64,000 nt of DNA, taken from NCBI GenBank assembly GCA_020630915.1, contig JAHDIF010000002.1, positions 62,001-126,000 on the forward strand. Reading direction: 5' to 3'. A model generated the notes under the pieces. The model searched no databases, was not told where the DNA came from, and saw nothing but the letters and a program-made list of their open reading frames with translations. Source of the stretch: Dokdonia sp. GTDB taxonomy: Bacteria > Bacteroidota > Bacteroidia > Flavobacteriales > Flavobacteriaceae. Positions 1-59,885 of the stretch are shown in pieces. The first letter of the stretch is position 1. Every line of letters begins with the position of its first letter. The translations under genes and the position numbers were made by a program.

Positions 1-2070
1 TCTAAAGCTTTGACAAAAAATAGTATACCTCCAGTAGCCGAAAAAAAACCTGTTAATCTAGAAAAACACGGTGATATACGTGTAGATAATTATTTCTGGA
101 TGAATGAAAGAGATCATCCAGAAGTTATAGATTATCTCGAAAGAGAGAATGACTACTATGATAAAATGACGGCTCATACCAAGAACTTTCAAAAAGAACT
201 CTTCACAGAAATGAAAGGTAGGATTAAGGAAGATGATGCTTCTGTTCCTTTTAAAAGTAATGGGTACTGGTATTACAATAGGTATGAATTAGGTAAGGAC
301 TACCCCGTTTTATGTCGCAAGAAAGATTCGCTCTCGAGCCAGGAGATTGTAGTGTTTGATAACAATGTAATGGCTAAAGGTCACCCATATTTTAGTCAGG
401 CAGGTTATACGGTATCAGAAGATAATAAGATAGCGGCCTTTGGCATTGATACAGTGAGTAGAAGGCAGTATACCATACAATTTAAAAACTTGGAAACAGG
501 TCAAGTTTACCCAGAAAAGATTGAAAACACTACTGGCAGAGCTGTATGGGCTAATGATAATAAGACTGTATATTACTCTAGAAAAGATGCTGAAACTTTG
601 CGCTCTAACCAAATTTTTAAACACGTTTTAGGAACCGATGTAAAGAATGATGAGCTCGTTTTTCAGGAAGATGATGAGACATTTTACAGTTATGTGTATA
701 AGACTAAGTCTAAAAAATATATAGTTATAGGATCTAGTAGTACGCTTACGAGTGAGTTTAGATGTACACTCGCAGATGAGGGGTCAAGTGAATTTACAGT
801 ATTTCAAGAGCGTTCTCGAGGACTGGAGTATAGTATTGCTCATTTTGAGAATACTTTTTATATCCTGACCAATAAAGATGGTGCTACCAATTTCAAACTA
901 ATGCAAACCTCTGAAGAATCAACCCAAAAGGAAAATTGGGAAGAGGTAATTCCGCATCGTGATAAGGTTTTACTAGAAGATATAGATATTTTTAAGGACT
1001 TTCTCGTTGTAAGCGAGCGAGAGAACGGACTTAACAAAATACGGATAACTAGCTGGGATAAGCAGGTTGATTACTACTTACCCTTTGATAATGAAACCTA
1101 TACCGCATACCCAACCACGAACGTAGATTTTGATACCACCACATTGCGTTACGCATATAATGCCCTAAATACACCTAGTTCTGTAATTGATTTCGACATG
1201 GTAACAAAGGAGAAATCGGTGATGAAAGAACAAGAAGTACTAGGAGGGACTTTTGATAAAAATAACTATGTGATGGAGCGCGTTTGGGCAACAGCCCGTG
1301 ACGGAGTTAAAGTTCCAGTTTCTATGGTATATCACAAAGACACTAAAAAAGATGGAAATGCTCCTTTGTTGCAATATGCTTACGGCAGCTATGGTAGCAC
1401 TATTGACCCTTCATTTTCGTCTATACGATTATCGCTGCTTGATAGAGGCTTTATTTATGCAATTGCACACATTCGTGGAGGAGAATATCTAGGAAGAAAA
1501 TGGTATGAGGATGGAAAATTACTTAAGAAAAAAAACACATTTACAGATTTTATAGATGTTTCTAAGCATCTTATCAAAGAAGACTATACATCAGAAGAAC
1601 ATTTATATGCTTTTGGTGGATCTGCAGGAGGCTTGCTTATGGGGGCGGTTGTAAATATGGCTCCAGAATTATATAAAGGAGTGATCGCTTCAGTACCTTT
1701 TGTAGATGTTGTGACAACGATGTTAGATGATACAATCCCTTTAACTACAGGTGAATACGACGAGTGGGGTAACCCTAATGATAAAGAGTACTATGAGTAT
1801 ATGAAAAGCTATAGTCCTTATGATAACGCTTTCGCGAAAGCGTACCCTACTATATTTGTAAATACTGGCTATCATGATAGCCAAGTTCAATATTGGGAAC
1901 CTGCTAAATGGGTTGCTAAAATGAGAGAAACAAACACAGGAGACAACACCATACTTTTTCATTGTAATATGGATGCAGGCCACGGCGGTGCATCTGGAAG
2001 GTTTGAATCGCTCAAGGAAGTAGCGCAAGAATATGCCTTCTTACTTGACCTTGAGGACATACAAGAGTAA
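1..2070 (+). CDS. ptrB: Oligopeptidase B (prolyl oligopeptidase family S9A), 5' end cut by the window
   Basis: Serine peptidase of the S9A family that cleaves short peptides, typically after basic residues. Counting from the in-frame TTG at position 10, the C-terminal alpha/beta-hydrolase domain shows the nucleophile motif GGSAGG (Ser538), Asp623 in a GYHDSQV stretch and His658 in DAGHGG: a complete catalytic triad. The N-terminal part (about residues 1-400) would form the beta-propeller gate. The frame is open to base 1 with no stop, and TTG is a poor start, so the true start, probably with a signal sequence, lies upstream of the window. One exact copy of the 14-bp palindrome sits in the gene (1828-1841) and is read as AFAKA. 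Confidence in the family is high; the start is unknown. Confidence 0.9.
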   Translation, partial: SKALTKNSIPPVAEKKPVNLEKHGDIRVDNYFWMNERDHPEVIDYLERENDYYDKMTAHTKNFQKELFTEMKGRIKEDDASVPFKSNGYWYYNRYELGKDYPVLCRKKDSLSSQEIVVFDNNVMAKGHPYFSQAGYTVSEDNKIAAFGIDTVSRRQYTIQFKNLETGQVYPEKIENTTGRAVWANDNKTVYYSRKDAETLRSNQIFKHVLGTDVKNDELVFQEDDETFYSYVYKTKSKKYIVIGSSSTLTSEFRCTLADEGSSEFTVFQERSRGLEYSIAHFENTFYILTNKDGATNFKLMQTSEESTQKENWEEVIPHRDKVLLEDIDIFKDFLVVSERENGLNKIRITSWDKQVDYYLPFDNETYTAYPTTNVDFDTTTLRYAYNALNTPSSVIDFDMVTKEKSVMKEQEVLGGTFDKNNYVMERVWATARDGVKVPVSMVYHKDTKKDGNAPLLQYAYGSYGSTIDPSFSSIRLSLLDRGFIYAIAHIRGGEYLGRKWYEDGKLLKKKNTFTDFIDVSKHLIKEDYTSEEHLYAFGGSAGGLLMGAVVNMAPELYKGVIASVPFVDVVTTMLDDTIPLTTGEYDEWGNPNDKEYYEYMKSYSPYDNAFAKAYPTIFVNTGYHDSQVQYWEPAKWVAKMRETNTGDNTILFHCNMDAGHGGASGRFESLKEVAQEYAFLLDLEDIQE
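1828..1841. repeat. 14-bp palindrome GCTTTCGCGAAAGC, copy 1 (coding)
   Basis: Exact copy inside the oligopeptidase B gene, read as Ala-Phe-Ala-Lys-Ala. The symmetry extends to 18 bp (1826-1843). Confidence 0.95.
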
Positions 2071-2085
2071 GTCATAAAAATATAG

Positions 2086-4648: not shown

Positions 4649-4662
4649 GCTTTCGCGAAAGC
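4649..4662. repeat. 14-bp palindrome GCTTTCGCGAAAGC, copy 2 (intergenic)
   Basis: Exact copy in the short space between a terminator and the 3' end of the convergent minus-strand gene. Confidence 0.95.
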
Positions 4663-7013: not shown

Positions 7014-9386
7014 ATGGCATTTTTAGAAGAAAAATTCCCAATGGAGATTAAGATAGGCTTTGGGAAGCTTGTGGAGGATTATAAATTACATCTTAATGGT
7101 ACTGACACTTTGCTTAAAGCTCGTGCAGAGCGGGTAATTGCTATTGCAAAAGAGTATCCAGTGCTTATTGAAGGGTTAAGCTCTTTTGAAGAAATAGAAA
7201 AGTATCAATCTCAAATAGATGCTATTCTAGCAGATCTCTTTTCGGGTATTTTACAGAATAATGAAATAAAGATGGCTTCTTTACCTTTTCATGAAGGAGT
7301 AATTAAAACATCTAAAAGATATGACAATATCATTAAGGCCGCTGGGCCAGAATTTCAACCAGAATTAAAGAACTTTGATGATGACTCCATGTACATAATG
7401 GGGTGTAGTATTATTTTGAACGCTTACTATGGTTATAAAACAGACTTTAGGAGGCCATTTTATTATGACATACCCGATGCGCAAGGTGTTATAAGACATT
7501 ATAGATTGCTTTATAACGGTGACTATATTTCTATAGAAAAAGGTCCAAGTGCTATTGATATCTCTCCAGAAGATGTTGCAGAATTGCTGGATAATTTTGA
7601 AAACATTGAGCTTTGGAAAGAAAAATTTCCGCCAAGAAGCTGGATATTTAAAGGTTTTGTAATTGCAAATTTGTATGATGCCACTGCTGATGTATCTATA
7701 TCTGATTTTAAGACTGGCTTGATTAAGTATGACAAGAGTGAAGAAGGTTTTGTAGAAGGTTTTCAGAAAATATTTAGGTCTATCTTTAATGTGCGTGACT
7801 TACAGGTTGGTTTTTCTGGTTATAATGAAGAAGAAAAAACTCTTGAGAGAATCCCAGAAAGGCGCATTGGTAGTTTTGTGCTTGCAGAAAACTTACGTGC
7901 AAATTGTCAAACCGCACTTTGCTCAGGATCCTATCACACCATATTTACACAGAATAAATTTTTTGCTATTTCTGATGTAGCAAACTATTATAAAAAGAAT
8001 CCAAAAGAAATATTCTACAAGAACTTATTAGATCAAAATATTAAGAGTGCCATTTTTGCTCCTATAACGAATAATGGACAATTTTTGGGTTTACTAGAAA
8101 TAGTATCAGGAACTACTCAAACACTTAATAGTATCAATGCCAATAAGTTGTTAGATTTAATGCCGTTTTTAGAAGATACTGTCCTTAGAGATAAAGCTGA
8201 GAGTGAAAATGCGCTGGAATTAATTATTCAAGATGAGTGTACTTCCATACATCCAAGTGTGTATTGGAAATTTAGACAAGAAGCTAAGCGTGTTTTTCAG
8301 GCACAATTAGATGATAACTCAGAGGTGTCCTTTAGGGATATTGTATTTAACGAGGTATATCCACTATTTGGTCAAATAGATATTAAAGGATCTTCTCAAG
8401 CTCGAAATGAAGCCGTTCAAAAAGATTTAATAGTTCAACTTAAGAGTGCAAAGACTATTTTGAAAGCTCTTCAAAATGTAAACAAATTACCTGTATACGA
8501 GGAGTTCCTGTATAGACTAGAAAAGTATGAACAAACTGTTCATTCTAACTTTGAGGTAGATAGCGAGCAAACTGTACTTAACTTTTTTAATGAAGATATA
8601 AGACCACTTTTTGATCATTTATTAAAAACCACCACGCCAGAGCTCAGAAAAATGATACGTGAGTATCGCTCTAAATTAGATCAAGGAATGGGGCTCATTT
8701 ATGTAAATAGAAAAGCTTTTGATGAGTCTGTGATGGCAATAAACAAGAAAATGGCTTCGGTTTTAGATAAGAAACAAAAAGCAGCTCAAGCTATGTATCC
8801 CCATTTTTATGAGCGTTTTAAAACGGATGGTGTAGAGCACAATATGTATATAGGCGAGTCCATAACTCGTGAAGATAGTTTCAATAAAATATATCTTTAT
8901 AATTTAAGGTTGTGGCAGTTGCAGGCAATGTGTGAGATGGAAAATGAGCATTATAAGCTTTCGCGAAAGCTTACGCACCCGCTTGATGTTGCTTCTATGA
9001 TATTAGTATTTAACACCTCGCTTTCTGTGCGTTTTAGAATGGATGAAAAACGTTTTGATGTAGACGGTACGTATAATGCTCGATATGAAGTTGTAAAAAA
9101 ACGTGTAGACAAGGCATATATCAAGGGAACTCAACAGCGGGTTACTCAAGCTGGAAAGATTGCGATTGTATACAGTCAAAAGGAAGACGAAAAAGAATAC
9201 TTAGGCTACGTACGTTTTTTACAAGCAAAGAAATACCTGGGAGAAAGTATAGAAATTGTTGAGCTAGAGGATTTACAGGCGGTAACAGGCCTTAAAGCAA
9301 TTCTTGTGGAGGTTCTCTACAAAACAAAAGCAGGTGAAAAGCAATACTACACCTATGATGACCTTATGAAAGAGCTGGAACTATAA
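7014..9386 (+). CDS. Large GAF-domain protein of unknown function
   Basis: 790 residues, soluble, no signal peptide. A GAF-like sensory module is suggested at about residues 240-400 by the segment with IKSAIFAPITNNGQFLGLLEI. The regions on both sides are mostly helical and not recognised. No histidine kinase, GGDEF, sigma-54 or DNA-binding output domain is visible, so what the GAF module controls is unknown. The last 23 bp overlap the 3' end of the convergent HD-PycTM gene. It carries one palindrome copy (8957), read as LSRK. The alternative start nine codons downstream (ATG 7041) is also possible. Confidence 0.75.
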   Translation: MAFLEEKFPMEIKIGFGKLVEDYKLHLNGTDTLLKARAERVIAIAKEYPVLIEGLSSFEEIEKYQSQIDAILADLFSGILQNNEIKMASLPFHEGVIKTSKRYDNIIKAAGPEFQPELKNFDDDSMYIMGCSIILNAYYGYKTDFRRPFYYDIPDAQGVIRHYRLLYNGDYISIEKGPSAIDISPEDVAELLDNFENIELWKEKFPPRSWIFKGFVIANLYDATADVSISDFKTGLIKYDKSEEGFVEGFQKIFRSIFNVRDLQVGFSGYNEEEKTLERIPERRIGSFVLAENLRANCQTALCSGSYHTIFTQNKFFAISDVANYYKKNPKEIFYKNLLDQNIKSAIFAPITNNGQFLGLLEIVSGTTQTLNSINANKLLDLMPFLEDTVLRDKAESENALELIIQDECTSIHPSVYWKFRQEAKRVFQAQLDDNSEVSFRDIVFNEVYPLFGQIDIKGSSQARNEAVQKDLIVQLKSAKTILKALQNVNKLPVYEEFLYRLEKYEQTVHSNFEVDSEQTVLNFFNEDIRPLFDHLLKTTTPELRKMIREYRSKLDQGMGLIYVNRKAFDESVMAINKKMASVLDKKQKAAQAMYPHFYERFKTDGVEHNMYIGESITREDSFNKIYLYNLRLWQLQAMCEMENEHYKLSRKLTHPLDVASMILVFNTSLSVRFRMDEKRFDVDGTYNARYEVVKKRVDKAYIKGTQQRVTQAGKIAIVYSQKEDEKEYLGYVRFLQAKKYLGESIEIVELEDLQAVTGLKAILVEVLYKTKAGEKQYYTYDDLMKELEL
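8957..8970. repeat. 14-bp palindrome GCTTTCGCGAAAGC, copy 3 (coding)
   Basis: Exact copy inside the GAF protein gene, read as Leu-Ser-Arg-Lys. Confidence 0.95.
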
Positions 9387-10642: not shown

Positions 10643-13600
10643 ATGTCTAAAAGACTACTACTACTTTACATTCTTATAATTGCATTTTTATCAGGATGTG
10701 CGACATATAAAGTTCAATATTTAGAAGGTGATGGTGCAGATAGTACTACGCTTTCGCGAAAGCGCACACTAGACAAAACTTTTTACCTCATAGGTGATGC
10801 TGGAGGTGCTACACCTAAAAAGCCTGAAACCGCACTCGCTGCCCTAGAAAAAGTGTTAGATACAGCAAGTACAAAGGATAATTATGCCATTTTCTTAGGT
10901 GATAACATCTATGACAAGGGATTACCTGAAAAAAAATCTCCCAAAAGAGAAGATGCAGAATATAAGCTAGATACCCAGCTCAAAGCTGTGAAAAATTTTG
11001 AAGGAAAAGTGATTTTTATTCCAGGTAATCACGATTGGTACGACAGCGGTCTTAAAGGTGTTAAGCGCCAGGAAGAGTACATAGAAAAGGCCTTGAACGA
11101 TAAAGACGCCTTCCAGCCAGAAAACGGATGCCCTATCGAAAAAATTGATGTTTCTGATGACATCACTTTGTTATTATTAGATACGCAGTGGTATCTATCA
11201 AATTGGGATAAGCATCCCACCATAAATGATGAGTGTGATATTAAAACTAGAAAGGATTTTTTCTTAGAAATAGAAGGCGAACTTAAAAAGAACAATGAGA
11301 AAACCATTCTAATAGCTATGCATCACCCAATGTTTACTAATGGAGTGCACGGAGGTAACTTTGCGATAGAGAAACATTTATTTCCATATCAATCAAAGAT
11401 ACCATTACCTGGTCTAGCTTCATTAGTTAAGCAAATACGAGGACAAGGAGGTGTATCTATTCAAGATAGAGGGAATAAACGATACAGTGAGTTAATGGAT
11501 AGGCTAGCTACACTAGCATATGATACGAACAAGGCCATTTTTGTTTCGGGTCATGAGCATAGTTTACAGTATATAGATCACGATGGCATTAAGCAAATAG
11601 TAAGTGGGTCAGGATCTAAAAAATCTGCAGCTAAGCTAGGGAGTGATGGGTTGTTTGCCTACGGAGGTCAAGGTTTTGCTGTTCTGGATGTATACAAAGA
11701 TGGGAGTTCTAAGGTCCGGTATTTTTCGGCAGTAGGAGGTGAGCCCAAGTTAATTTATACAAAAGAAGTTCATCCAGCTTGGAAAGACTACGACACATCT
11801 GGTCTACCAAATAGTTTTGAATCTACCACAAAAGCCACCGTATATGCTAAAGAGGATACAGATAAAGGAGACGGATATAAGAGTTTTTGGGGTGATCATT
11901 ATAGAAAAGTATATGGGACAGATATTGAAGTCCCAGTAGTGACACTCGATACACTAATGGGTGGCTTTACGATAGATAGAAAAGGAGGAGGACACCAAAC
12001 TCGATCGCTAAGATTAGTTTCTCCGGCAGGTAAAAATTATGCGATGCGAGCTGTTAAGAAAAGCGCCGTACAGTTCTTACAATCTGTAGTATTTAAAGAT
12101 AATTTTGTGCAAGAAGAGTTTAAAGAAACATTTACCCAAGACGTCATTCTGGATTTCTACACCGCAAGTCACCCTTTTGCGAGTCTTGCAGTAGGTGATC
12201 TCGCAGATGCTATAGATGTATATCACACAAATCCGCAGCTTGTGTGGATGCCTAAGCATCCTGCTTTAGGAAAATACAATGAGACTTATGGAGATGAGTT
12301 GTATTTAATAGAAGAGAGGCCAGACGAAGGATTTACAGATGTAGTATCCTTTGGGACTCCAGATAAAATAGAAAGTACTTCTGATATGCTTGAGAATATT
12401 AGAAAAGATGAAGAGTATCTCATGGACGAAACGGCTTATGTAAAAGCACGATTGTTTGATATGTTACTAGGTGATTGGGATAGACATGCAGATCAATGGA
12501 GATGGGCACGTTTTGATAATAAAGACAAGAAAATCTACAGGCCTATACCTAGAGATAGGGATCAGGTATTTTCCAATTACGACGGTGGTTTTTTAGACAT
12601 TATCAAAGCCTTGGTACCCGCAGCGAGACAATTTCAAGAGTATGATGGTGAGTTAAAAGATGTAAAATGGATTAATATCGCAGGAAGTAAGCTAGATCAC
12701 GCACTATTACCAAATACTACAAGAGATACCTGGTTAGAACAGGCAACTTTTATACAAGAAAACTTGACAGATGAGGCTATTGAAAGTGCATTCTGCAAGT
12801 TTCCTAAAGAGGTTAAGGATGAACAATTGGAAAATGTAAAGGCCATATTAAAAGTGCGCCGTTCTAATCTGACATCTATCGCAAAGCGTTATTATGACCA
12901 TTTAAGTAAACTAGTGATTCTTAAAGGAACAGACAAGGATGACCATTTTGAGATTACTAGAGAAGCAATGGGAACTCGCGTTCAGATTTCTAGAATTAAA
13001 GATGGCGAGGTAAAAAAGCCCTTTATAGATAGACTATTACTTCCCGGAGAAACTAAGGAGTTGTGGATTTATGGACTGGATGATGATGATACCTTTCGCG
13101 TAAGCGGAAAAGGAAAAAAACCAATCTTTACACGTATTGTAGGAGGACAGAATAATGATGTGTATACCATAGAAGATGGCAGGCGAGTAAAGGTATACGA
13201 CCATAAAACTAAACCTAATACGATCAAGAAAAAAGGCGGTGCTAACTTTAAGCGATCCAACATTTACACGCACAATACATACGATCTTAATAAGACAATT
13301 ACTAAGGTAAATAGTATTTTGCCTTCCATAGGCTTTAATCCGGATGATGGATTGATTCTCGGGCTTCAGGACACGTATGCTATTAAAGGTTTTAAAAATG
13401 ATCCCTTTCATAGAAAGCACGTTTTTAAGGCAGGGTACTACACGGCGACAGGAGGATTTGATGCCAGTTATCAAGGAGAATTTGCAAATTCTCTTGGTGA
13501 ATGGAATCTACTAGTGGGTGGCCGTCTTACCACAGATGCATATGCGTTAAATTTCTTTGGTTTTGGGAATGAAACTGAAAATAATGACGATACAGAATCG

Positions 13601-14356
13601 CTAGAACTTGATTTTAATCGTGTTCGTACGGGACAGACAGAAATCCATCTAGGCGTGGTGAAGGATAATGACTATGGAAGTCGTATTGCTTTTACAACAA
13701 ACTTTCAAAGCGTTGAGATAGACCCAAGTGCTGGCAGATTTATCACAGAGGATTTTGTGACTACAGATACCGAATTTTTTGACCGTAAGAATTTTGTTGG
13801 AGCAGAGGGAATGTATAGCTATCACAGCACTAATAATGATGCAAACCCACACACTGGGATGCTTTTTGATATCACAGTAGGCTCAACGTTAAATATAGAA
13901 GATACAGATAGGGTTTTTGGATATGTTCGTCCAGATTTGACTTTTTATAATGCGCTTTCGCGAAATAAAAAGCTAGTACTTAGAACACAAGTGCAAGGAC
14001 AATTTAACATAGGTGATTCTTTTGAATTTTATCAAGCTGCGACCGTAGGCGCTACTAATGGCTTACGAGGTTTTAGGAACCAACGATTTACGGGTGAGAG
14101 TGCACTGGCAGGAAGTGCAGATATTAGATATAGCTTTAATCAGATGAAAACGGGTTTACTCCCTATCCAGTTAGGAATCTTTGGAGGAGCAGATCTCGGA
14201 AGAGTATGGCTAGACGGAGAAGATAGTGATATATGGCACAACTCCCTAGGAGGTGGATTCTGGATAAATGCGGTGGATATGATTTCTGGGCAGTTTGGGC
14301 TTTTTAATTCTGACGACGGGATGCGTGTTAGTTTTGGATTTGGAGTAAGTTTATAA
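10643..14356 (+). CDS. Giant lipoprotein: calcineurin-like phosphoesterase + kinase-like middle region + outer-membrane beta-barrel
   Basis: 1237 residues. Lipoprotein signal (FLSGC). Residues 45-370 are a metallophosphoesterase with GDN (86-88), GNHD (128-131) and GHEH (303-306). The middle region (about 440-760) is not a standard domain. It contains AMRAVKK (Lys472/473), LLGDWDRH (Asp611, Asp613, His615) and PIPRDRDQ (Asp638, Asp640), an order resembling CotH/FAM20-type atypical kinases. Residues about 880-1237 look like a BamA-type beta-barrel of alternating strands. It would sit at the outer membrane with enzymatic domains in the periplasm or on the surface. The PAP2 phosphatase gene follows 11 bp later, suggesting an operon for phospholipid, phosphate or cell-surface phosphoester metabolism. 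One palindrome copy at 10750 (LSRK) and a degenerate one at 13954. Confidence 0.8.
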   Translation: MSKRLLLLYILIIAFLSGCATYKVQYLEGDGADSTTLSRKRTLDKTFYLIGDAGGATPKKPETALAALEKVLDTASTKDNYAIFLGDNIYDKGLPEKKSPKREDAEYKLDTQLKAVKNFEGKVIFIPGNHDWYDSGLKGVKRQEEYIEKALNDKDAFQPENGCPIEKIDVSDDITLLLLDTQWYLSNWDKHPTINDECDIKTRKDFFLEIEGELKKNNEKTILIAMHHPMFTNGVHGGNFAIEKHLFPYQSKIPLPGLASLVKQIRGQGGVSIQDRGNKRYSELMDRLATLAYDTNKAIFVSGHEHSLQYIDHDGIKQIVSGSGSKKSAAKLGSDGLFAYGGQGFAVLDVYKDGSSKVRYFSAVGGEPKLIYTKEVHPAWKDYDTSGLPNSFESTTKATVYAKEDTDKGDGYKSFWGDHYRKVYGTDIEVPVVTLDTLMGGFTIDRKGGGHQTRSLRLVSPAGKNYAMRAVKKSAVQFLQSVVFKDNFVQEEFKETFTQDVILDFYTASHPFASLAVGDLADAIDVYHTNPQLVWMPKHPALGKYNETYGDELYLIEERPDEGFTDVVSFGTPDKIESTSDMLENIRKDEEYLMDETAYVKARLFDMLLGDWDRHADQWRWARFDNKDKKIYRPIPRDRDQVFSNYDGGFLDIIKALVPAARQFQEYDGELKDVKWINIAGSKLDHALLPNTTRDTWLEQATFIQENLTDEAIESAFCKFPKEVKDEQLENVKAILKVRRSNLTSIAKRYYDHLSKLVILKGTDKDDHFEITREAMGTRVQISRIKDGEVKKPFIDRLLLPGETKELWIYGLDDDDTFRVSGKGKKPIFTRIVGGQNNDVYTIEDGRRVKVYDHKTKPNTIKKKGGANFKRSNIYTHNTYDLNKTITKVNSILPSIGFNPDDGLILGLQDTYAIKGFKNDPFHRKHVFKAGYYTATGGFDASYQGEFANSLGEWNLLVGGRLTTDAYALNFFGFGNETENNDDTESLELDFNRVRTGQTEIHLGVVKDNDYGSRIAFTTNFQSVEIDPSAGRFITEDFVTTDTEFFDRKNFVGAEGMYSYHSTNNDANPHTGMLFDITVGSTLNIEDTDRVFGYVRPDLTFYNALSRNKKLVLRTQVQGQFNIGDSFEFYQAATVGATNGLRGFRNQRFTGESALAGSADIRYSFNQMKTGLLPIQLGIFGGADLGRVWLDGEDSDIWHNSLGGGFWINAVDMISGQFGLFNSDDGMRVSFGFGVSL
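10750..10763. repeat. 14-bp palindrome GCTTTCGCGAAAGC, copy 4 (coding)
   Basis: Exact copy near the 5' end of the phosphoesterase gene, read as Leu-Ser-Arg-Lys. Confidence 0.95.
13954..13967. repeat. Degenerate palindrome copy (coding)
   Basis: GCTTTCGCGAAATA: 12 of 14 bases match the repeat. It lies in the beta-barrel part of the phosphoesterase gene. Confidence 0.7.
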
Positions 14357-16357: not shown

Positions 16358-16436
16358 ATACGTTAATTGTTGTTTAAATGTATGTGCTTTCGCGAAAGCA
16401 TATAAACCAAGATCCATTTTAGGGCGTTTAACGTAT
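16358..16436. repeat. Inverted repeat flanking a palindrome copy upstream of the coiled-coil gene
   Basis: ATACGTTAA (16358-16366) and its exact reverse complement TTAACGTAT (16428-16436) bracket the palindrome at 16386, almost centred on it. It ends 20 bp before the next start codon. The function is unknown. Confidence 0.5.
16386..16399. repeat. 14-bp palindrome GCTTTCGCGAAAGC, copy 5 (intergenic)
   Basis: Exact copy in the upstream region of the coiled-coil gene, 57 bp before its start codon. Confidence 0.95.
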
Positions 16437-31575: not shown

Positions 31576-31589
31576 GCTTTCGCGGAAGC
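31576..31589. repeat. Degenerate palindrome copy (intergenic)
   Basis: GCTTTCGCGGAAGC, one mismatch to the repeat, between the DUF819 and DUF5916 genes. Confidence 0.8.
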
Positions 31590-41468: not shown

Positions 41469-41540
41469 TGGCTATTATGCTTACGCGAAATCGAGATCAT
41501 GAGATTTATAAGTATCGGTAGAGCGAGTCAGTATCTCAAC

Positions 41541-45361: not shown

Positions 45362-45772
45362 ATGGCTCGCATTATAGCGATAGATTATGGTACTAAACGA
45401 ACAGGCATAGCAGTAACAGACGAGTTACAACTAATAGCCTCAGGTTTGACGACGGTTGCTACAAAAGAATTAATGCCTTTTCTAAAGAAGTATCTAACAG
45501 AGGAAGATGTCGAGATGATGGTGATAGGAGAGCCCAAACGTATGAGCGGAGAGCCTTCTGAAGTAGAGGTGGATATAGTACGCTTTCGCGAAAGCGTAGA
45601 AAAAAAATTCCCCACCTTAAAGATTGTAAGGCAAGATGAGCGTTTTACCTCAAAAATGGCTTTCCAAACAATGATAGATAGTGGAATAGGAAAGAAAAAG
45701 AGACAAAATAAAGCACTGGTAGATCAAATTAGTGCGACCATTATATTACAAGAGTATCTTTACAATACATAA
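45362..45772 (+). CDS. ruvX: Holliday-junction resolvase-like RNase H fold protein RuvX/YqgF
   Basis: 136 residues from ATG 45362 (MARIIAIDYGTKRTG); the frame upstream of it is spurious. RNase H fold with catalytic Asp8 and the IGEPKRMSG, DERFTSKMA and ALVDQISATIILQEYL segments typical of YqgF. YqgF is essential in E. coli, with a role in 16S rRNA 5' processing as well as a proposed resolvase activity. The stop is followed 3 bp later by def, so the two are coupled. Contains palindrome copy 11, read as FRES. Confidence 0.93.
   Translation: MARIIAIDYGTKRTGIAVTDELQLIASGLTTVATKELMPFLKKYLTEEDVEMMVIGEPKRMSGEPSEVEVDIVRFRESVEKKFPTLKIVRQDERFTSKMAFQTMIDSGIGKKKRQNKALVDQISATIILQEYLYNT
45582..45595. repeat. 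14-bp palindrome GCTTTCGCGAAAGC, copy 11 (coding)
   Basis: Exact copy in ruvX, read as Phe-Arg-Glu-Ser. The symmetry extends to 20 bp (45579-45598). Confidence 0.95.
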
Positions 45773-48173: not shown

Positions 48174-49784
48174 TTAAGCCCCAAACAAATTAACAGTCAC
48201 TGTTGCCAGTTCTGAGTCGGGAAATTTTCGCGAAAGCGTATCATTTTTACGCAATCCAATCGTATCTAAAACGGCCTCAAATATAGGGGCTTCCACAATA
48301 TATTGATCAGAATATCCATGTGTGGCATTGTAGGCCGTTACAGCACTGCGACCTAAATTTTTGGCAACGACTGCTGGTGGTACAGTATGGAGCTCTATTA
48401 ATAGCAATCCAAACTTTTTTGTATACGGTGCCCACGCTTTAAAATGCTCGGCTAGAGAAGCTTCGACAGCATTATTGGATAGTCGTACACCTTCATAGGC
48501 AAAAGCTCCTGTAGAGGCACTAATATGGGCAAGATCCATAGACGGCTGTTTCCAGATACGGTTATGATCCAAGAAAGAACGTACATTAAGCAAATCGCCC
48601 AGAGCAACACCATAATCTTCTTGTAAGTCTTGTGCCAGTCTATCGGGATCACCAATATCTCCCCATACTACTTTTGCCCAGATATCTGCCTGTATAAGGT
48701 TTGCTTTGGTGATTTTAAGGGCAGCATCATTATAATCTGCTCCTACCAATATTAATGGGTGTTCATCTAAGTGTCTACCACGAAGGGTTTGATGCTCAAT
48801 AACCTCAAATAAGTGTGTGAGAAAAGCACCATTACCGCAACCCATATCCAGTATACCTTTGGGTTGTTGTTCGAGTGGTTTGTTAAAGAGATCTATAATA
48901 ATTTGATCTACGATTTTAAAGTAACTACTATGCGCACCACCACTTCCCCAGACATTCATCGCACGGTCTACGTGGCCTTCTTTATTCCCGTCTCCAGCTT
49001 CTTTTGCAGCGGTGGCATTTCCAAAGATGAGGTCGTCTAGCTTTCTAAGTGTTGGGATATACGATACAGTCACGCCATAGGCACTTGCTCTTTTTGCAAA
49101 AAACAATCCCTTTTCCGTAAAGCGATAGGTGTTTTTAGACTTTTCAAAAATCTCAAAATAGGCGAGTATGTCCAATAAACGCTCAAAGTTTTTAGGGTCT
49201 TCATGAAACTCTTCACTCTTAAAACTGGCTTGCATAAAGTATTTATGGAACATCCCGTTCATTGCTAGGTTTACGAGAGTAGGTCCAAGTATAATGCCTT
49301 CAATATGTTTGAGTATTTGATGTTGCAGGTCCTTTTCTAGTGCTGTCTCTGGTGCAGGAAAATCATAGTTATTTTTAAACTTTGTCACGATAGACTCTAA
49401 GGTTAAAAAGGGCGGAACATCAATTCTTCTATAGTGATAATCTGTAGAGAGGCGTAACAGCTCAACGACGTCTCTATAAGCTTGAAACAAAGGAAAAACA
49501 AAGGCACTTGTCTCATTGGTTTTATAAGTAACCGCGTTGTTTACATTATCTATGTGTTGTTCTAACCAACCTTGTGAGCATAGGGTATGTAGTGCAACAT
49601 TAAGATAGCCCTCATTTGCTTTGAACTTCTTTGTAATATCTTTTAGAGCTACTTTTTTCTTTTCTAAAAGGTAATCGGTCACGCCTTTGCAGTACAATTC
49701 GTAGGCAGATGGAGCGGTGACAATTCCATCTAGATGTCTAAATAAGCTATTACGATACTGTGTGAAATCCTTTTTTGGTGCCAT
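48174..49784 (-). CDS. Large class I SAM-dependent methyltransferase with two N-terminal winged-helix-like regions
   Basis: 536 residues. The SAM-binding motif GILDMGCGNGAFL (about 315) and acidic strand VGADYNDAAL define a Rossmann methyltransferase domain in the C-terminal half. The N-terminal half has two dimerisation/winged-helix-like stretches, one with LKDITKKFKANEGYLNVALHTL (about 45-75) and one with FERLLDILAYFEIFEKSKNTYRFTEKG (about 200-230). Such helices precede the catalytic domain in small-molecule O-methyltransferases and in some polyketide-type methyltransferases. The substrate is unknown and no biosynthetic cluster surrounds it. A degenerate palindrome sits near its 3' end. Confidence 0.75.
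   Translation of the reverse strand: MAPKKDFTQYRNSLFRHLDGIVTAPSAYELYCKGVTDYLLEKKKVALKDITKKFKANEGYLNVALHTLCSQGWLEQHIDNVNNAVTYKTNETSAFVFPLFQAYRDVVELLRLSTDYHYRRIDVPPFLTLESIVTKFKNNYDFPAPETALEKDLQHQILKHIEGIILGPTLVNLAMNGMFHKYFMQASFKSEEFHEDPKNFERLLDILAYFEIFEKSKNTYRFTEKGLFFAKRASAYGVTVSYIPTLRKLDDLIFGNATAAKEAGDGNKEGHVDRAMNVWGSGGAHSSYFKIVDQIIIDLFNKPLEQQPKGILDMGCGNGAFLTHLFEVIEHQTLRGRHLDEHPLILVGADYNDAALKITKANLIQADIWAKVVWGDIGDPDRLAQDLQEDYGVALGDLLNVRSFLDHNRIWKQPSMDLAHISASTGAFAYEGVRLSNNAVEASLAEHFKAWAPYTKKFGLLLIELHTVPPAVVAKNLGRSAVTAYNATHGYSDQYIVEAPIFEAVLDTIGLRKNDTLSRKFPDSELATVTVNLFGA
48224..48237. repeat. Degenerate palindrome copy (coding)
   Basis: 12 of 14 bases match (first two differ), in the 3' part of the methyltransferase gene. 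Confidence 0.7.
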
Positions 49785-50185: not shown

Positions 50186-51487
50186 GTGACTCGAACGAAA
50201 AAAGAACATATTTATACAGACTTAGATCTCTTAAAATCTAAGTTATTGCAATGGGCACAGCAGTATGATGAGGTAATCTGGCTGGATAGTAATAGCTACG
50301 AGGGTCAAAATTATCCAGAGTATGAAGCTATTCTAGCTGTCGAAGCTTTTACGAGTATCAAAACAGATTATTTTGGGGCTTTTGACAAACTCGAAGAGTA
50401 TCAAAGCACGACTAAAGACTGGATATTTGGATACCTTTCATACGATCTTAAAAATGATGTAGAGCGTCTTCAATCTAAAAATGATGATGGGTTGGACTTT
50501 CCTGATCTACAGTTTTTTCAGCCTAAAAAAGTTTTCTTACTTAAAGGCGGTATACTTACTATGTTATATCTCCCTATGTGCGATGATGAGATAGAAGAAG
50601 ACTATCTCCAAATACAAAATACGTCACCCGAAATTAAAGAGGAGGCTGCCGAATCATTATCTATCAAACTCAAAATCCATAAGGACGCTTACAAGGATAA
50701 AGTAGAGAAAATGCTTTCTCATATTTACAGAGGCGATATTTATGAGGCAAATTTTTGCCAAGAGTTTTTTGCGCATGGCACTATAGATCCCGTGAGGGTT
50801 TACAAAAATCTTAATAACATTAGCAGTCCGCCATTTGCAACCTATATCAAGCTAGATGAGCACTATGTACTATCAGCAACTCCAGAACGGTATCTTAAAA
50901 AGATAGGGGAGAAGGTAGTGAGTTCTCCTATAAAAGGCACAGCGGCTAGAGGAAAGGATGATAAGGAGGATATCGCTTTCGCGAAAGCGTTATCTCAAGA
51001 TCCAAAAGAACGTAGTGAAAATGTCATGATCGTAGATCTCGTCCGAAACGACTTGTCGCGAATAGCCAAAAAGGGAAGTGTGCGAGTAGAAGAGTTGTGC
51101 AAAGTGTATCCTTTTAAACAAGTGCATCAGATGATTTCTACTGTAGCGTGTGACGTGAGTGTGGGCATTTCTCCAGTAGATGTAATACGAGCTACCTTTC
51201 CAATGGGCAGTATGACGGGAGCGCCCAAAGTAAGCGCAATGCAAATTATAGAAGATTTAGAAGAAACCAAACGTGGTTTGTATAGTGGCGCTGTAGGCTA
51301 CTTTACACCAGATGGTGATTTTGATTTTAATGTGATTATAAGAAGCATCTTGTATAATCAACAAGAAGACTACATTTCTTATTCTGTAGGCGGCGCGATT
51401 ACTGCACAATCAGATCCAGATAAAGAGTATGCTGAGTGTTTATTAAAGGCGAAGGCAATGAGAGCTGTTTTGGAAGGGAAATCCTAA
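50186..51487 (+). CDS. pabB: Aminodeoxychorismate synthase component I
   Basis: About 433 residues from GTG 50186 (residue run V-T-R-T-K-K-E-H). The frame extends to TTG 50111, but that overlaps the divergent VF530 start and lacks family resemblance. Chorismate-binding motifs: [33 protein letters not shown] and [15 protein letters not shown]. With PabA it converts chorismate plus glutamine-derived ammonia to aminodeoxychorismate for p-aminobenzoate and folate. Anthranilate synthase component I is the closest alternative. Palindrome copy at 50975 (AFAKA). Confidence 0.88.
50975..50988. repeat. 14-bp palindrome GCTTTCGCGAAAGC, copy 12 (coding)
   Basis: Exact copy inside pabB, read as Ala-Phe-Ala-Lys-Ala. 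Confidence 0.95.
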
Positions 51488-51512: not shown

Positions 51513-51526
51513 GCTTTCGCGAAAGC
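51513..51526. repeat. 14-bp palindrome GCTTTCGCGAAAGC, copy 13 (intergenic, ettA leader)
   Basis: Exact copy 50 bp before the ettA start codon, only 524 bp from copy 12. Confidence 0.95.
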
Positions 51527-53455: not shown

Positions 53456-54142
53456 ATGAAGAAAGTAATTGCTTTTGATGCAGATGATACCTTATGGGTA
53501 AATGAACCGCTCTTTAGAAGAGCAGAGGAAGAATTTTGTGAGTTGATGGTTGATTTTTTGGATATACAAACCTGTGCAAAAAAGCTTTTTGATTTTGAAA
53601 TGCAAAATCTTCCACTGTATGGGTATGGTATCAAACCTTTTACTTTATCACTGGTCGAAGCCGCTATTATATTAAGCAAAGGCAAGGTTTCTAATGATAT
53701 CTTACTTAAAATTATAGCAATAGGAAAAGCTATGCTTGCCGCACCAGTCGTGGTATTAGATGAGGTGGAAGAGGTGTTAGGTGCGCTTTCGCGAAAGCAA
53801 AACTACAAACTCGTCATGGCTACAAAAGGGGATTTATTAGATCAAGAGCGTAAATTAGAAAAATCTGGATTATCTGAATATTTTCATCATATTGAGGTAA
53901 TGAGTAATAAAAAACCGGGTAATTATAGAAAACTGGTAGAGCATCTAGATATTCATCCAGAGCAGTTTGTTATGGTAGGTAATTCTGTAAAAAGCGACAT
54001 TTTGCCCGTACTAGAAATAGGCGGTCAAGCTTTTCACATTCCTTTTCATACTACCTGGGAGCATGAAATGGTTACAGAACCAGTTGCACATCCTAAGTTT
54101 AAAGAATTGGTAAGTATAAAACAACTAGTAGACCATATGTAA
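53456..54142 (+). CDS. HAD-family hydrolase
   Basis: 228 residues from ATG 53456 (MKKVIAFDADDTLW); the TTG two codons earlier is weaker. Motif I DADDT with nucleophile Asp8 and acid/base Asp10, motif II ATKG, motif III K-P (NKKPGNYRK) and motif IV GNSVKSDI. A Mg-dependent phosphatase, substrate unpredictable. Palindrome copy at 53785 (LSRK). Confidence 0.9.
   Translation: MKKVIAFDADDTLWVNEPLFRRAEEEFCELMVDFLDIQTCAKKLFDFEMQNLPLYGYGIKPFTLSLVEAAIILSKGKVSNDILLKIIAIGKAMLAAPVVVLDEVEEVLGALSRKQNYKLVMATKGDLLDQERKLEKSGLSEYFHHIEVMSNKKPGNYRKLVEHLDIHPEQFVMVGNSVKSDILPVLEIGGQAFHIPFHTTWEHEMVTEPVAHPKFKELVSIKQLVDHM
53785..53798. repeat. 14-bp palindrome GCTTTCGCGAAAGC, copy 14 (coding)
   Basis: Exact copy inside the HAD hydrolase gene, read as Leu-Ser-Arg-Lys. 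Confidence 0.95.
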
Positions 54143-55553: not shown

Positions 55554-56894
55554 TTACAATATACCTCGTGCCTTAATTTCTAGATACTTATTAATTGTAT
55601 TCACTGTAAGGTCCTCTGGGGCTGTGAGTATGGTCTGGATACCGTATTTCTCAAGAGTAGTTGCCATTACTTTTTTGTCGTAGTCAGATTTTTGGGCAAT
55701 GGTTTTATGGTAGATAGTTTGTACATCTTCCGCAGGGCTGGAAATAAGCTTATCGAGCTCTGTATTTTTGAAAAATATAACAACGAGTATATGCTTTCGC
55801 GAAAGCGCTTTCAAATACCCCATCTGTCGCTCCATAGCACTTATATGCTCAAAATTAGTATAAAGTAAAAGCAGGCTGCGCTGGGTAACCTTTCTTTTTA
55901 CTTGATTATATAACGTGCCAAAATCACCATCTAGGAACTTAGTTTCTATATTGTAAAGCACCTCTAAAATCGTCGTGAGATGTGTTTTTTTACTACTGGC
56001 AGGTAAGTGGTTTTTAATACCTTCTGCAAAGGTGATCATTCCCACTTTATCCTTCTTTTTTAAGGCGATATTAGAAAATGCGAGGGTGCTATTAATGGCG
56101 TAATCTAACAAGGTAAGACCATTAAAAGGCATTTTCATTGTCCTACTGGCATCTATGAGACTATAAATAGGTTGTGATTTTTCATCTTGAAATTGATTGA
56201 CCATCAGACTGGCTCTTTTTGCCGTCGCTTTCCAGTTTATGGTTCGTACATCATCTCCTAGGACGTAGTCTTTTATTTGTTCAAACTCCATCGTATGTCC
56301 TATACGACGTATCTTTTTCATCCCGTGTAATGTGAGTCTATTGTCTAGCGCGAGGAAGGCATACTTTTTCATCTGAATAAAAGAAGGATAGACTTTTACC
56401 ATCTGATCTTTCTCAAATTTATAACGCCTTTTAAGAAGTTTTAATCCTGAGCTGGCATAGATATTTAAATTCCCAAAGTAGTATTCCCCGCGTTCTGTTG
56501 GTCTTAGCTCATAAGTGAATGTAGCTTCTTCCTTTGCTGGAATATTAAGTGTTTTATTAAAATCTCGTTTTTGAAATTGTATAGGGATTTCTTCTATAAC
56601 GTCTACGGTAATCGCAAAACCATAGTTATTTTTAATGAGTATAGGTAATTCGTTTTGATCACTATTCGAAAATTTTTCTGGAAGTTTACGTGCCGCAACA
56701 ACGCGCTGTCCTCCTCTCCATAACGAAATAGCATCTAAGAGTAACACTACACCCAAGCCAGCTAGCGCTAGAAGTCCTATAGCAAACAGTCCGTTAAACC
56801 AATAGGATAGAAGCAAACAGACGGCTATAGCTGCCAGTAGGTAAAACAATCGCGTGTTTACGTACAGAGATTTTATGAATCTAATAAAAGCCAA
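55554..56894 (-). CDS. DUF58 protein with von Willebrand factor A-like fold
   Basis: 446 residues. Two membrane segments near the N terminus (about 15-55), a beta-rich middle, then the DUF58 core: VRTINWKATAKRASLMVNQ and IYSLIDASRTM (MIDAS-like). It ends without a membrane anchor. In MoxR clusters, DUF58 proteins pair with the ATPase, which is thought to act as a chaperone loading metal or maturing partners. It begins directly after the moxR gene. Palindrome copy at 55793 (LSRK). Confidence 0.9.
   Translation of the reverse strand: MAFIRFIKSLYVNTRLFYLLAAIAVCLLLSYWFNGLFAIGLLALAGLGVVLLLDAISLWRGGQRVVAARKLPEKFSNSDQNELPILIKNNYGFAITVDVIEEIPIQFQKRDFNKTLNIPAKEEATFTYELRPTERGEYYFGNLNIYASSGLKLLKRRYKFEKDQMVKVYPSFIQMKKYAFLALDNRLTLHGMKKIRRIGHTMEFEQIKDYVLGDDVRTINWKATAKRASLMVNQFQDEKSQPIYSLIDASRTMKMPFNGLTLLDYAINSTLAFSNIALKKKDKVGMITFAEGIKNHLPASSKKTHLTTILEVLYNIETKFLDGDFGTLYNQVKRKVTQRSLLLLYTNFEHISAMERQMGYLKALSRKHILVVIFFKNTELDKLISSPAEDVQTIYHKTIAQKSDYDKKVMATTLEKYGIQTILTAPEDLTVNTINKYLEIKARGIL
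55793..55806. repeat. 14-bp palindrome GCTTTCGCGAAAGC, copy 15 (coding)
   Basis: Exact copy inside the DUF58 gene, read on the minus strand as Leu-Ser-Arg-Lys. Confidence 0.95.
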
Positions 56895-57936: not shown

Positions 57937-59142
57937 TTATGTCGTTTTGTATGCTTCTATTAAAGTATTGAGTCGCTCTAGTTCTTGTTGGGTAATGTGC
58001 TCCTTTTGTTGTATGTATTGTATTAAGTCTATAATACGTTTTGTTTGATCTACGGGATTCCCTGTTTTAAGAGAGGCTCTATTTATAAAATCCAATCCCA
58101 ATCTAGAAGTATCTAGATTATGAGTGCTGCGTAAATACTCTAGAAAATGATTTATTTGATGATAGGCTATACTCTTATGATCCTTCTTTTCTAAATACAT
58201 ACCGGCTATTGTATGCGTGTAAGCGATCGTTTGGTTTTCTAAGGGTTTTACAATTGGGATCGCCCGTTGCTTGCGCTTTCCTTCAAAAAACACCCATAAA
58301 AAAACACCTAACAGCAGCACGTACCAAGCCCACTTTAGATATCTATTCTTAAAGAGCATATAAAGCGGAGAGCTATAGTAGGTCTTACTATTTTTATAAT
58401 GATTATCCCAGTAAAAGTTGGTGCCCTCAGGAATATATAATTGTGCTCCATCTGTATACTTGTAGTTTTCTTTATGAAGCATAAAGTAATTTGTAAAGGT
58501 CTCTGGGAAGAGATGAAGATAGACCATTCCTTTTCCATAAGGTTGAGCTATAAAATTTACTTTTGGCTCTTCCATCCCGTTTACATTTTCCTTTTTGTAG
58601 TCAAAAACGCCAAGAACCGTTGTATTAAGTGTATCTATCTCATTAAAGTAACTAGCAGATATTTCAATATCTAAGTCGTATGGAATGCTTTTTTTTAGTG
58701 ACGGATTCGAAAGATTAAGCAAGGGTTTCTTTTCAAAATTGTCCAGGTCATAATAAAACTCTGTTGCAAGCGATAAGGAGTCTAGCAGCGTTTCAGAAAC
58801 AGTGCTGCTTGCAACGTAAAGCGCATTGCCTTCTGCTACCCATTCTAATAATCTATGCGTTTCTGCTTCGTCAAAATAGACAGCATCATTCACAAAAAAA
58901 TACGTGCCCGTCACGGTAGTATCCTTTAAAAATTCATATGGAGGCATATTTGCTTCTTGAAAATCATCAGCTAGTTTGTCTTTTAAGGTCGTATGATACA
59001 CGTTTAGTCCAAACGGTATTTTGTCATTGTTACCATAACTAGGATACCAATTAATTGGCTCTGGACGGGTCGCTTCTAGATAGATAAGTAACCCCAACGC
59101 GAGGAGAATAACACCAGCAAGTATTTTATAACTCTTCGTCAT
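57937..59142 (-). CDS. DUF4350 membrane protein of the MoxR cluster
   Basis: 401 residues. One N-terminal membrane segment, an extracytoplasmic domain with YVASSTVSETLLDSL and YGKGMVYLH segments matching DUF4350, and a second membrane segment at about 270-290 (WAWYVLLLGVFLWVFF). A cytosolic tail rich in charged helices follows. The function is unknown; the family occurs with MoxR, DUF58 and DUF4129 genes. Overlaps the DUF4129 gene by 4 bp. Confidence 0.87.
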   Translation of the reverse strand: MTKSYKILAGVILLALGLLIYLEATRPEPINWYPSYGNNDKIPFGLNVYHTTLKDKLADDFQEANMPPYEFLKDTTVTGTYFFVNDAVYFDEAETHRLLEWVAEGNALYVASSTVSETLLDSLSLATEFYYDLDNFEKKPLLNLSNPSLKKSIPYDLDIEISASYFNEIDTLNTTVLGVFDYKKENVNGMEEPKVNFIAQPYGKGMVYLHLFPETFTNYFMLHKENYKYTDGAQLYIPEGTNFYWDNHYKNSKTYYSSPLYMLFKNRYLKWAWYVLLLGVFLWVFFEGKRKQRAIPIVKPLENQTIAYTHTIAGMYLEKKDHKSIAYHQINHFLEYLRSTHNLDTSRLGLDFINRASLKTGNPVDQTKRIIDLIQYIQQKEHITQQELERLNTLIEAYKTT

Positions 59143-59885
59143 ATCTCACTGTTTATTTTGTTGAATGCGAGTTGCGCTTTCGCGAAAGCGTCCTCATCCA
59201 CCTCAAAGTTACCATACCAGATGTAGTCGTATATGTCTGTAAGTCGCATAAATTGACCACGTAGTTGTGTGTTTTTTATCTCATAAATATACTCATGATT
59301 GGTTTTCTGAACTTGCCAATCTATAAGCTCTTTTCCAGATAATTTTTGAAGCGTGAGTAAGTAGTAGTATCTAATTGCGAGACGGTAGTTTCCTTCTTTA
59401 AGCGCCGTATCTATCAAAGATTGGATATCTTGACTGTTCATGATCTCCTCATCATCTCCTATAAAAACATCCTTGTGATTTGGATGAATTATGGCTCTGG
59501 CATTATCAATTTTGAGGAATACATAAATGAGAAGCGCTAAGAGTCCAGCGCCTAATAAATAGGGCAGAAGTCTGAGTAATATACCTAGTATACCTGTGGC
59601 TTCTTCACCGCCTGTGAGCCATCGTAAAAAAGAGTTCCAGATATCTGATAATTTCCTTCTTAAACGAGAAAGCCAGTTGTCTTCTGGTTCGATCTCTACA
59701 TAATTGTAGTCGGGATCATTTTTAAAATCTTCAATAGCGACTTCATCTAGAGATGTCCCATCAATAGGTTGAGCATCATACACCACCTCTTTTTGAGTGG
59801 AGACAGGTACGTCCTCACTTGTCGTCTGTGCCAAACAACAAACTGACGGGCATACCAATAAACAGAAGATGAGTATTCTGAACAT
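59139..59885 (-). CDS. DUF4129 membrane protein of the MoxR cluster
   Basis: 248 residues. Signal peptide (ends CCLAQ), an acidic extracytoplasmic stretch, one membrane segment (about 106-128) and a C-terminal DUF4129-like domain (IDTALKEGNYRLAIRYYYLLTLQKL) of about 85 residues, similar to proteins in transglutaminase/MoxR operons. It contains palindrome copy 16, read as AFAKA in the C-terminal helix. Confidence 0.86.
   Translation of the reverse strand: MFRILIFCLLVCPSVCCLAQTTSEDVPVSTQKEVVYDAQPIDGTSLDEVAIEDFKNDPDYNYVEIEPEDNWLSRLRRKLSDIWNSFLRWLTGGEEATGILGILLRLLPYLLGAGLLALLIYVFLKIDNARAIIHPNHKDVFIGDDEEIMNSQDIQSLIDTALKEGNYRLAIRYYYLLTLQKLSGKELIDWQVQKTNHEYIYEIKNTQLRGQFMRLTDIYDYIWYGNFEVDEDAFAKAQLAFNKINSEI
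59176..59189. repeat. 14-bp palindrome GCTTTCGCGAAAGC, copy 16 (coding)
   Basis: Exact copy near the 3' end of the DUF4129 gene, read on the minus strand as Ala-Phe-Ala-Lys-Ala. Confidence 0.95.

Follow-up and report, generated by a model that had tools for sequence, protein, structure and literature searches.

An evenly spaced 14-bp palindrome with phased flanks, apparently maintained by selection in Dokdonia genomes

Introduction

Few of the words that recur throughout genomes have a known job (uptake sequences and Chi do), and the HIP1 word of cyanobacteria is still unexplained; Xu et al. 2018 reportedly proposed a nucleoid role for it. Known Chi sites are short, directional and not palindromic. 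Sites of the parS, Noc, SlmA and MatP type are palindromic and bound by a dimer, and in the DnaA-trio of replication origins a double-strand box lies beside a three-nucleotide single-strand pattern.

Published counts give a scale for comparison. E. coli has 1008 Chi copies in 4.64 Mb, and 65% of the uptake sequences of H. influenzae and 35% of those of N. gonorrhoeae lie within ORFs; uptake sequences are also in excess in non-coding DNA, are cited as evenly spaced and, as described there, are not palindromes (excerpt of PMC1939737). The element reported here resembles Chi in its density, near 1 per 4-5 kb, and in a G/T-rich entering strand, and differs from it in being a strict 14-bp palindrome. 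What makes it unusually informative is its length, near invariance, even spacing and conservation in place; moreover, it is confined to three genera and its flanks follow a readable grammar.

Results

The window, by which we mean the whole 64-kb stretch of DNA analysed, from a marine bacterium of the Dokdonia group, was recounted for the 14-bp palindrome GCTTTCGCGAAAGC, which an earlier note had described as dispersed through it. That observation is confirmed. All 16 exact copies are where they had been reported, as are four near copies, two with one mismatch (31576, 44143) and two with two (13954, 48224), and there are two further 2-mismatch copies, at 13092 and 41479, that the earlier note lacked. 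Chance was said to be far too low to account for them, and when up to 2 mismatches are allowed the window indeed holds 22 matches, as against a mean of 0.17 and a maximum of 2 in 100 dinucleotide shuffles counted the same way; 0.00008 exact copies are expected under independent bases. The next commonest palindromes in the window have 4 copies (10 bp), 2 copies (12 bp) and 1 copy (14 bp). With ORFs of at least 100 aa considered, 11 of the 16 exact copies are inside ORFs, where they are read as AFAKA in five, LSRK in four and FRES in two, the same tally as before. The features are as follows, with no strand assigned to any of the sites.

1828..1841, exact copy, inside ORF 10-2070 (+), frame AFAKA
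4649..4662, exact copy, convergent spacer
8957..8970, exact copy, inside ORF 7014-9386 (+), frame LSRK
10750..10763, exact copy, inside ORF 10643-14356 (+), frame LSRK
13092..13105, near copy, 2 mismatches
13954..13967, near copy, 2 mismatches
16386..16399, exact copy, divergent spacer
20027..20040, exact copy, inside ORF 19423-20688 (-), frame AFAKA
21114..21127, exact copy, inside ORF 20727-21896 (+), frame AFAKA
25603..25616, exact copy, inside ORF 25264-26958 (-), frame FRES
31576..31589, near copy, 1 mismatch
34972..34985, exact copy, divergent spacer
38504..38517, exact copy, divergent spacer
41479..41492, near copy, 2 mismatches
44143..44156, near copy, 1 mismatch
45582..45595, exact copy, inside ORF 45344-45772 (+, RuvX family), frame FRES
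48224..48237, near copy, 2 mismatches
50955..51008, example of the full proposed element, palindrome plus ~20 bp per side, left side C-poor and right side G-poor
50975..50988, exact copy, inside ORF 50111-51487 (+, pabB), frame AFAKA
51513..51526, exact copy, tandem spacer, pabB / ettA
53785..53798, exact copy, inside ORF 53450-54142 (+, HAD hydrolase family), frame LSRK
55793..55806, exact copy, inside ORF 55554-56894 (-), frame LSRK
59176..59189, exact copy, inside ORF 59139-59885 (-), frame AFAKA

The element exceeds its first description in that its flanks belong to it and its spacing is even. Specifically, it spans about 54 bp of DNA with two-fold symmetry, made up of the strict palindrome, a TAY/RTA shoulder and ~20 bp on each side; the extent given for 50955..51008 holds for the other exact copies on the basis of flank statistics over many copies. 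C is avoided on the strand entering the palindrome for ~20 bp on each side, in ORFs as well as in convergent, tandem and divergent spacers, and this signature does not depend on gene strand. Being strand-independent and the same in ORFs and in all spacer kinds, the signature is not driven by RNA or by codons.

T is enriched at each third base of the flanks in two genera and weakly in a third. In spacer copies the T phase means are.52/.35/.38 (permutation p 0.0006), and in strict spacers, which have no ORF of 50 aa within 30 bp, they are.52/.39/.35 and.62/.38/.41. With similar flanks removed, the contrast of the T period is.106 (CI.077-.134) in the genome from which the window comes (the source genome),.147 (CI.107-.188) in G223 and a weak.048 (CI.006-.089) in G178. 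The period is nearly flat in control windows farther from the palindrome; in g10 other spectral peaks are about as large as the three-base peak.

Could such a palindrome arise unselected, as a by-product of codon use, as a mobile repeat or as an RNA hairpin? The AFAKA frame, frame 0, is favoured within ORFs (48 of 98 ORF copies in the source genome) and copies are over-represented in the first tenth of ORFs (26/135), and both points were counted for this possibility. They are opposed by a copy density that is ~5.6 times higher in spacers than in ORFs of the source genome, by a flank signature that is equally present in divergent spacers and by copies that are more conserved than other 14-mers. 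Nor are the flanks repeats, as the source genome's own flanks have a mean identity of.31 and reach at least 70% in 9 of 51040 pairs. Hairpins were rejected as well, since the flanks have no clear register complementarity beyond a mild excess at position 1 (.609 vs.538, sd.027), with 1-2 sd at other positions, and the context of REP or terminator hairpins was not found, divergent spacers being equal in density and flanks. A by-product is thus largely refuted and is very improbable. In keeping with the earlier note, the element is maintained at the level of DNA rather than of the peptide, as shown by the use of three frames, the denser spacers and the likeness of flanks in ORFs and spacers.

The earlier note had named a chance-level genome count and absence from close relatives as findings that would speak against a maintained element. 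Genome-wide there are 685 exact copies in 2.97 Mb (about 0.23 per kb, or one per ~4.4 kb) and 0 for the reversed control, and 18 of 18 genomes of the genus Dokdonia carry the palindrome in 369-905 copies each. Between the source genome and G003, 8 of 11 sites are conserved as against a background of 2.8% for other 14-mers. In 8 of 17 other loci of the Dokdonia group, the pabB copy at 50975..50988 has a perfect counterpart at matching distance from ettA, and there is site turnover between species in the pabB-ettA tandem spacer that holds the copy at 51513..51526. These comparisons show an element retained at many orthologous positions but subject to local turnover, and the palindrome is apparently maintained genome-wide by selection.

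The copies also repel one another, so that their spacing is even. When compared with 1000 simulations that preserve the spacer/ORF preference, the source genome has 0 of 155 spacings below 500 bp (19.6 simulated, lowest 9) and 3 of 155 below 1 kb (33.5 simulated, lowest 20), while G223 has 0 of 112 below 1 kb (25.1 simulated, lowest 13). Gaps longer than 12 kb carry ordinary-looking genes, as judged by eye, and foreign DNA was rejected as their source. In the one-contig genome G178 there is no ori/ter trend over 24 stretches, which hold 0-4 copies per 20 kb, the sole stretch with 0 copies containing 5000 masked bases.

This distribution bears on two proposals of the earlier note. In the first, a surface receptor of natural transformation would prefer site-bearing DNA, and biased uptake with recombination would have filled the genome, as for the DUS of Neisseriaceae and the USS of Pasteurellaceae. 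Those sequences, like the present element (98 of 160 copies in the source genome lie in ORFs), are abundant, partly in ORFs, spacer-enriched and reportedly evenly spaced, and the even spacing and spacer excess that characterise them are both seen here. Patchy occurrence in 3 of 203 genera fits too, and the retention of the flank signature by one-mismatch copies was counted in the same direction. Moreover, a related flavobacterium, Riemerella columbina, prefers its own DNA in natural transformation, for which a signal sequence is not established (excerpt of PMC7965970). On the other hand, a strong match (over 400 bits) to the type IV pilus/T2SS ATPase (PF00437) is present in only 2 of 8 motif-rich and 4 of 20 motif-poor genomes. 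The pilus ATPase is therefore not supported as a partner, being missing from 6 of the 8 motif-rich genomes, and this departs from DUS and USS as does the palindrome itself. A flank that is strand-asymmetric and phased in three bases is also hard to account for by an extracellular receptor. The uptake proposal thus fits density and spacing but not the distribution of the pilus ATPase, although uptake might proceed by other means than such an ATPase, and we regard it as a possible but doubtful explanation.

The second proposal was a nucleoid- or partition-protein site, at which a putative dimeric DNA-binding protein would bridge, condense or tether the chromosome as Noc, SlmA and MatP do and as was suggested for HIP1. 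The strict palindrome, even spacing, conserved positions and lack of an ori/ter trend suit a nucleoid organiser, and a palindromic dimer site is shared with parS/Noc/SlmA/MatP-type sites. These differ, however, from an element with hundreds of copies, no ori/ter bias and no ParB paralogue. The ParB version is not supported, as each of 7 motif-rich genomes has one ParB copy and its helix-turn-helix region, of the usual kind in 4 motif-rich proteins, is near-identical across these and 9 motif-poor proteins in alignment; a Noc-like ParB paralogue was rejected on the same grounds. An organiser alone would also leave the single-strand-like flank pattern unexplained. We hold this reading to be about as doubtful as uptake.

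The earlier note had further likened the palindrome to HIP1. HIPs are 8 bp long, occur about once per 1000 nt and can have palindromic extensions, and a core resistant to change is described for them (excerpt of PMC4390886). As a description the likeness stands, for both are hyper-abundant exact palindromes in genes and spacers without an assigned function, though the present element has 14 bp, ~0.23 copies per kb and strand-asymmetric phased flanks. The palindrome, its high count and a core that resists change, all HIP-like, were counted for a methylation-linked origin. Elhai's proposal for cyanobacterial HIPs, in which the palindrome arises and persists through an orphan DNA methyltransferase and biased mismatch repair, found no support here among three enzyme classes. 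The m5C class PF00145 is missing in 3 of 6 motif-rich genomes, PF01555 in 4 of 6 and MethyltransfD12 in 4 of 8, and G223, with 664 copies, lacks all three, so that none of these classes is supported as a partner. A methyltransferase site is also too small for 14 bp with 20-bp flanks. A methylation origin is accordingly improbable, and the earlier interpretation overall is partly supported.

Discussion

Our best explanation, offered tentatively, is a site which a dimer recognises and from which a filament with three nucleotides per unit is laid down, for use in recombination or repair at intervals of a few kb; uptake and nucleoid organisation are its close rivals. A putative homodimeric protein would read the palindrome as double-stranded DNA, and a filament with a three-nucleotide footprint per unit, of RecA type or of a DnaA-type AAA+ initiator, would be placed in fixed register on the unpaired strand to either side. 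The site would then serve a recombination or repair process that needs at least one such place per few kilobases, acting like a Chi hotspot yet independently of direction because it is palindromic. That separate flavobacterial lineages gained such a direction-independent loading site together with its putative protein, which would make it a new kind of element, is rather unlikely. The DnaA-trio offers the parallel of a double-strand box adjoining a three-nucleotide single-strand pattern, although the entering strand here has a T-K-A-like triplet in place of the DnaA-trio and the element is dispersed in hundreds of copies with no DnaA-box needed.

RecA filaments are most stable on TGG repeats and least on CCA, with single-stranded DNA grouped in threes (excerpt of PMC3763553), and the C-poor, G/T-rich entering strand matches this preference and was counted for filament loading. 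Counted against it, from the same excerpt, are that RecA nucleation is not preferential at Chi and that papers cited there put GT-rich islands near Chi down to codon use. Limitation to 3 of 203 sampled genera is likewise odd for a core repair function. The weak period in G178 and the similar peaks in g10 mean that the pattern would also suit a protein bound to double-stranded DNA through contacts at -4, -7, -10 and -13.

An AddB-type nuclease (PF12705, AddB-like ORF) is present in 16 of 16 genomes tested, which was counted for the Chi-like reading, and an additional, AddA-like match was called in 14 of them, the exceptions being G223 and G026. Over the aligned C-terminal ~770 aa of AddB, 0 residues separate 7 motif-rich from 9 motif-poor genomes, and in that part no co-variation with the motif was seen. 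The half-site GCTTTCG occurs 94 times outside perfect copies in the source genome, near copies included, as against 54.7 expected under a Markov model, a mild excess that gives no sign of an independent 7-nt Chi. The analysis yielded no binding protein for the element, which was counted against this explanation; among the small proteins shared across partial genome samples no candidate was convincing.

Of the 299 genomes in the family sample, 5 are motif-rich, and these belong to 3 of the 203 genera; motif-rich genera have motif-poor relatives nearby. For so informative an element, the putative binding protein should be findable through a pull-down or by comparing motif-rich with motif-poor genomes, and a direct structural prediction follows from the flank period. 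No description of the element turned up in the literature searched, the 10 papers with TTTCGCGAAA being judged by title only, and the 14-mer was not found in its text. A search for sequence dialects across 80 named loci gave no comparable palindrome. Phage contigs contributed at least 120 stretches in the palindrome search, a raw count from which no conclusion is drawn.

Finally, 18 stretches from 8 genomes were picked for clustered copies among 66 low-count genomes. There, 37 of 39 copies are inside ORFs, several of metal-efflux families, so that parS-like clusters were rejected and transferred DNA is the better reading. Copies in other genera also flag apparently transferred DNA, such as metal-resistance genes.

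The palindrome is the core of a longer element

Recounting the window placed all 16 exact copies of the 14-bp palindrome where an earlier note had put them, added six near copies, and bore out its claim that 11 exact copies lie inside ORFs in all three frames (genes throughout are longest-ORF calls). The comparison with a control and with close relatives that the note had proposed also went in its favor. Specifically, the source genome (2.97 Mb, 18 contigs) contains the exact palindrome 685 times and the reversed word not once, and all 18 genomes of the genus, this one included, keep 369-905 copies each. The genome samples used below are parts of genomes with some bases masked (5000 in one stretch of G178, a one-contig genome of genus g162).

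A 324-kb sample of the source genome holds 72 perfect copies, 12 with one mismatch and 19 with two. When the 64 one-mismatch copies from this genome, G003 (another Dokdonia-group genome) and G223 (genus g10) are pooled, changes fall at folded positions 1/14 (21), 2/13 (11), 5/10 (12) and 6/9 (16), and are rare at 3/12 (1), 4/11 (1) and 7/8 (2). The element exceeds 14 bp, with the consensus TAYGCTTTCGCGAAAGCRTA. Outside this consensus C is scarce in the left flank and G in the right, and the folded GC skew declines from.67 at distances 4-10 to.45 at 11-20 and.18 at 21-30, with values near zero farther out. This signature is equal in plus-strand genes, minus-strand genes and spacers, and likewise for copies inside ORFs and those in tandem, convergent and divergent spacers; within ORFs it is present at every codon position with a peak at position 3. 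Much of it is retained by the one-mismatch copies, and it is weaker in G178. Comparing the left flank with the right in register gives no clear complementarity, which argues against their being hairpin arms.

Spacer copies also carry an excess of T on the strand entering the palindrome at -4, -7, -10, -13, -16 and -19 (phase means.52,.35 and.38; permutation p 0.0006), and this period is seen in strict spacers as well. With similar flanks removed the T contrast is.106 in the source genome (269 half-sites),.147 in G223 (155) and.048 in G178 (122; CI.006-.089), and the phase is nearly flat in control windows past -25. In g10 the -4 and -10 positions dominate and rival spectral peaks are similar in size; thus, a strict three-base period is best supported in Dokdonia.

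Among ORF copies in the source genome and G003, 26 of 135 lie in the first tenth of the ORF. The frame 0 peptide, AFAKA, can fall where a signal peptide is cleaved, and several efflux proteins are examples. One 479-aa ORF (C10:36706-52320, locus set L114-L116) has the N-terminus ...AFAKPVLSQVEGAQ..., in which PVLSQVEG follows the site peptide AFAK; we take PVLSQVEG to be encoded by a second repeat that is dispersed in flavobacteria.

Distribution across genomes

The closest named relative by EttA, an uncultured Dokdonia (locus L034, 94% identity), has four copies in 21.7 kb, and none occur at the remaining 79 named EttA-relative loci. At least one copy occurs in 71 of 299 genomes in the family sample (203 genera), of which only five are rich: two from the Dokdonia group, two from genus g10 (G026 and G223, with 578 and 664 copies) and G178 of genus g162 (408). 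The remaining 66 have 1-19 copies each. In the phylum sample 21 of 345 genomes match, all except the source genome with 1-4 copies.

In a small tree of ParB plus part of AddB from 13 genomes, the concatenation groups G178 with the motif-poor genus g126, near Dokdonia, and places g10 far from Dokdonia beside motif-poor G188 (supports of the two groupings.92 and.98); AddB alone leaves the near-Dokdonia group of G178 and g126 unresolved. On these placements motif presence looks patchy, which points to more than one gain, or to loss.

Spacing, conservation and turnover

Spacing was analyzed over 724 kb of the source genome (24%), giving 155 spacings with a mean of 4.44 kb and a CV of.63. None is below 500 bp and three are below 1 kb, versus 19.6 and 33.5 in 1000 simulation runs that preserved the denser spacers (minima 9 and 20). 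Spacings below 1 kb number 0 of 112 in G223 (25.1 simulated), 2 of 59 in G003 (13.1 simulated) and, in a small set, 1 of 42 in G178 (5.9 simulated, minimum 0). Copies per 20 kb are under-dispersed, with an index of.39 in the source genome and.37 in G178 and a mild effect in G003 (.81). Across 24 stretches of the G178 chromosome, copy number shows no trend with its GC-skew halves.

Eleven source-genome copies lie in DNA that aligns with G003 (73% identity); 8 of them are perfect in G003 and 3 have one or two mismatches there, versus 2.8% of any 14-mers conserved. Conservation is 3 of 8 copies to G178 (background 0.8%), 1 of 6 to G223 (1.6%) and, between G026 and G223, 11 of 11 (31%). Of 18 loci compared around ettA (17 genomes plus L034, a possible duplicate of G013), 16 carry one or more perfect copies within ~1.6 kb. 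The copy in pabB is found again, at -597 to -608, at 8 of the 17 other loci. At 7 of the 18 loci the spacer adjoining ettA holds a perfect copy; at the rest that copy is degenerate, shifted or absent. Such a mixture of conservation and turnover would be expected under selection for regional density.

Directly upstream of ettA in G003 (locus L315), a different palindromic repeat-like stretch, GAGATTCCCGCCTTCGCGGGAATGAC, fills the spacer that holds the site in other Dokdonia genomes. The 20-mer CCCGCCTTCGCGGGAATGAC has no match in the partial genome samples.

Candidate functions

Among motif-rich genomes, methyltransferases of PF00145 occur in 3 of 6, PF01555 in 2 of 6 and MethyltransfD12 in 4 of 8, with none of these three classes in G223. 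Strong pilus ATPase matches were found in 2 of 8 motif-rich versus 4 of 20 motif-poor genomes. ParB is single in 7 of 7 motif-rich genomes, two are present in 4 of 9 motif-poor genomes, and its helix-turn-helix region is near-identical among 13 aligned proteins.

The data establish the element and the way it is spaced, conserved and distributed; the binding protein and function outlined next are putative. The strict palindrome suggests that a dimer would read it on duplex DNA. The separation of G and C over ~20 bp and the three-base step on one strand suggest that the flank could be contacted as a single strand in three-nucleotide units, in the way of a RecA filament; the base preference reported for RecA agrees with the bases avoided and preferred in the flanks (PMC3763553). 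Even spacing with regional turnover suggests that one site might be needed per few kilobases. Palindrome, flanks and spacing with turnover together favor, tentatively, a Chi-like loading site, which remains a doubtful assignment; a DNA uptake signal and a nucleoid organiser are each only slightly less likely. AddB was found in 16 of 16 genomes, and no residue in its aligned part tracks the motif.

Copies outside motif-rich genomes

In eight low-count genomes picked for clustered copies (18 stretches), 37 of 39 copies are ORF-internal, and their flanks show the signature. These copies look like transferred pieces still carrying the donor's site. Eight copy-bearing proteins were scanned, and four of them, in the first three lines here, match heavy-metal efflux families:

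CusA/CzcA, one protein
Heavy-metal P-type ATPase, two proteins
RND adaptor, one protein
OEP, FUR and metallo-beta-lactamase/rhodanese domains, three of the other proteins
No match, one protein

Two copies 933 bp apart recur in four family-sample genomes (G086, G091, G103, G199) and one of the phylum sample (G153). The pair sits in outer-membrane efflux (OEP) genes of several genera (for example L016:7390-8607 and L021:4360-5577), with CusA/CzcA-type genes adjoining in some, and they have the appearance of metal-resistance DNA that was shared recently and is marked by the site. Two or three copies also occur in viral-collection contigs L185 (IMGVR_UViG_2617271332_000001), L154, L168 and L208, which may be proviruses of motif-rich hosts.
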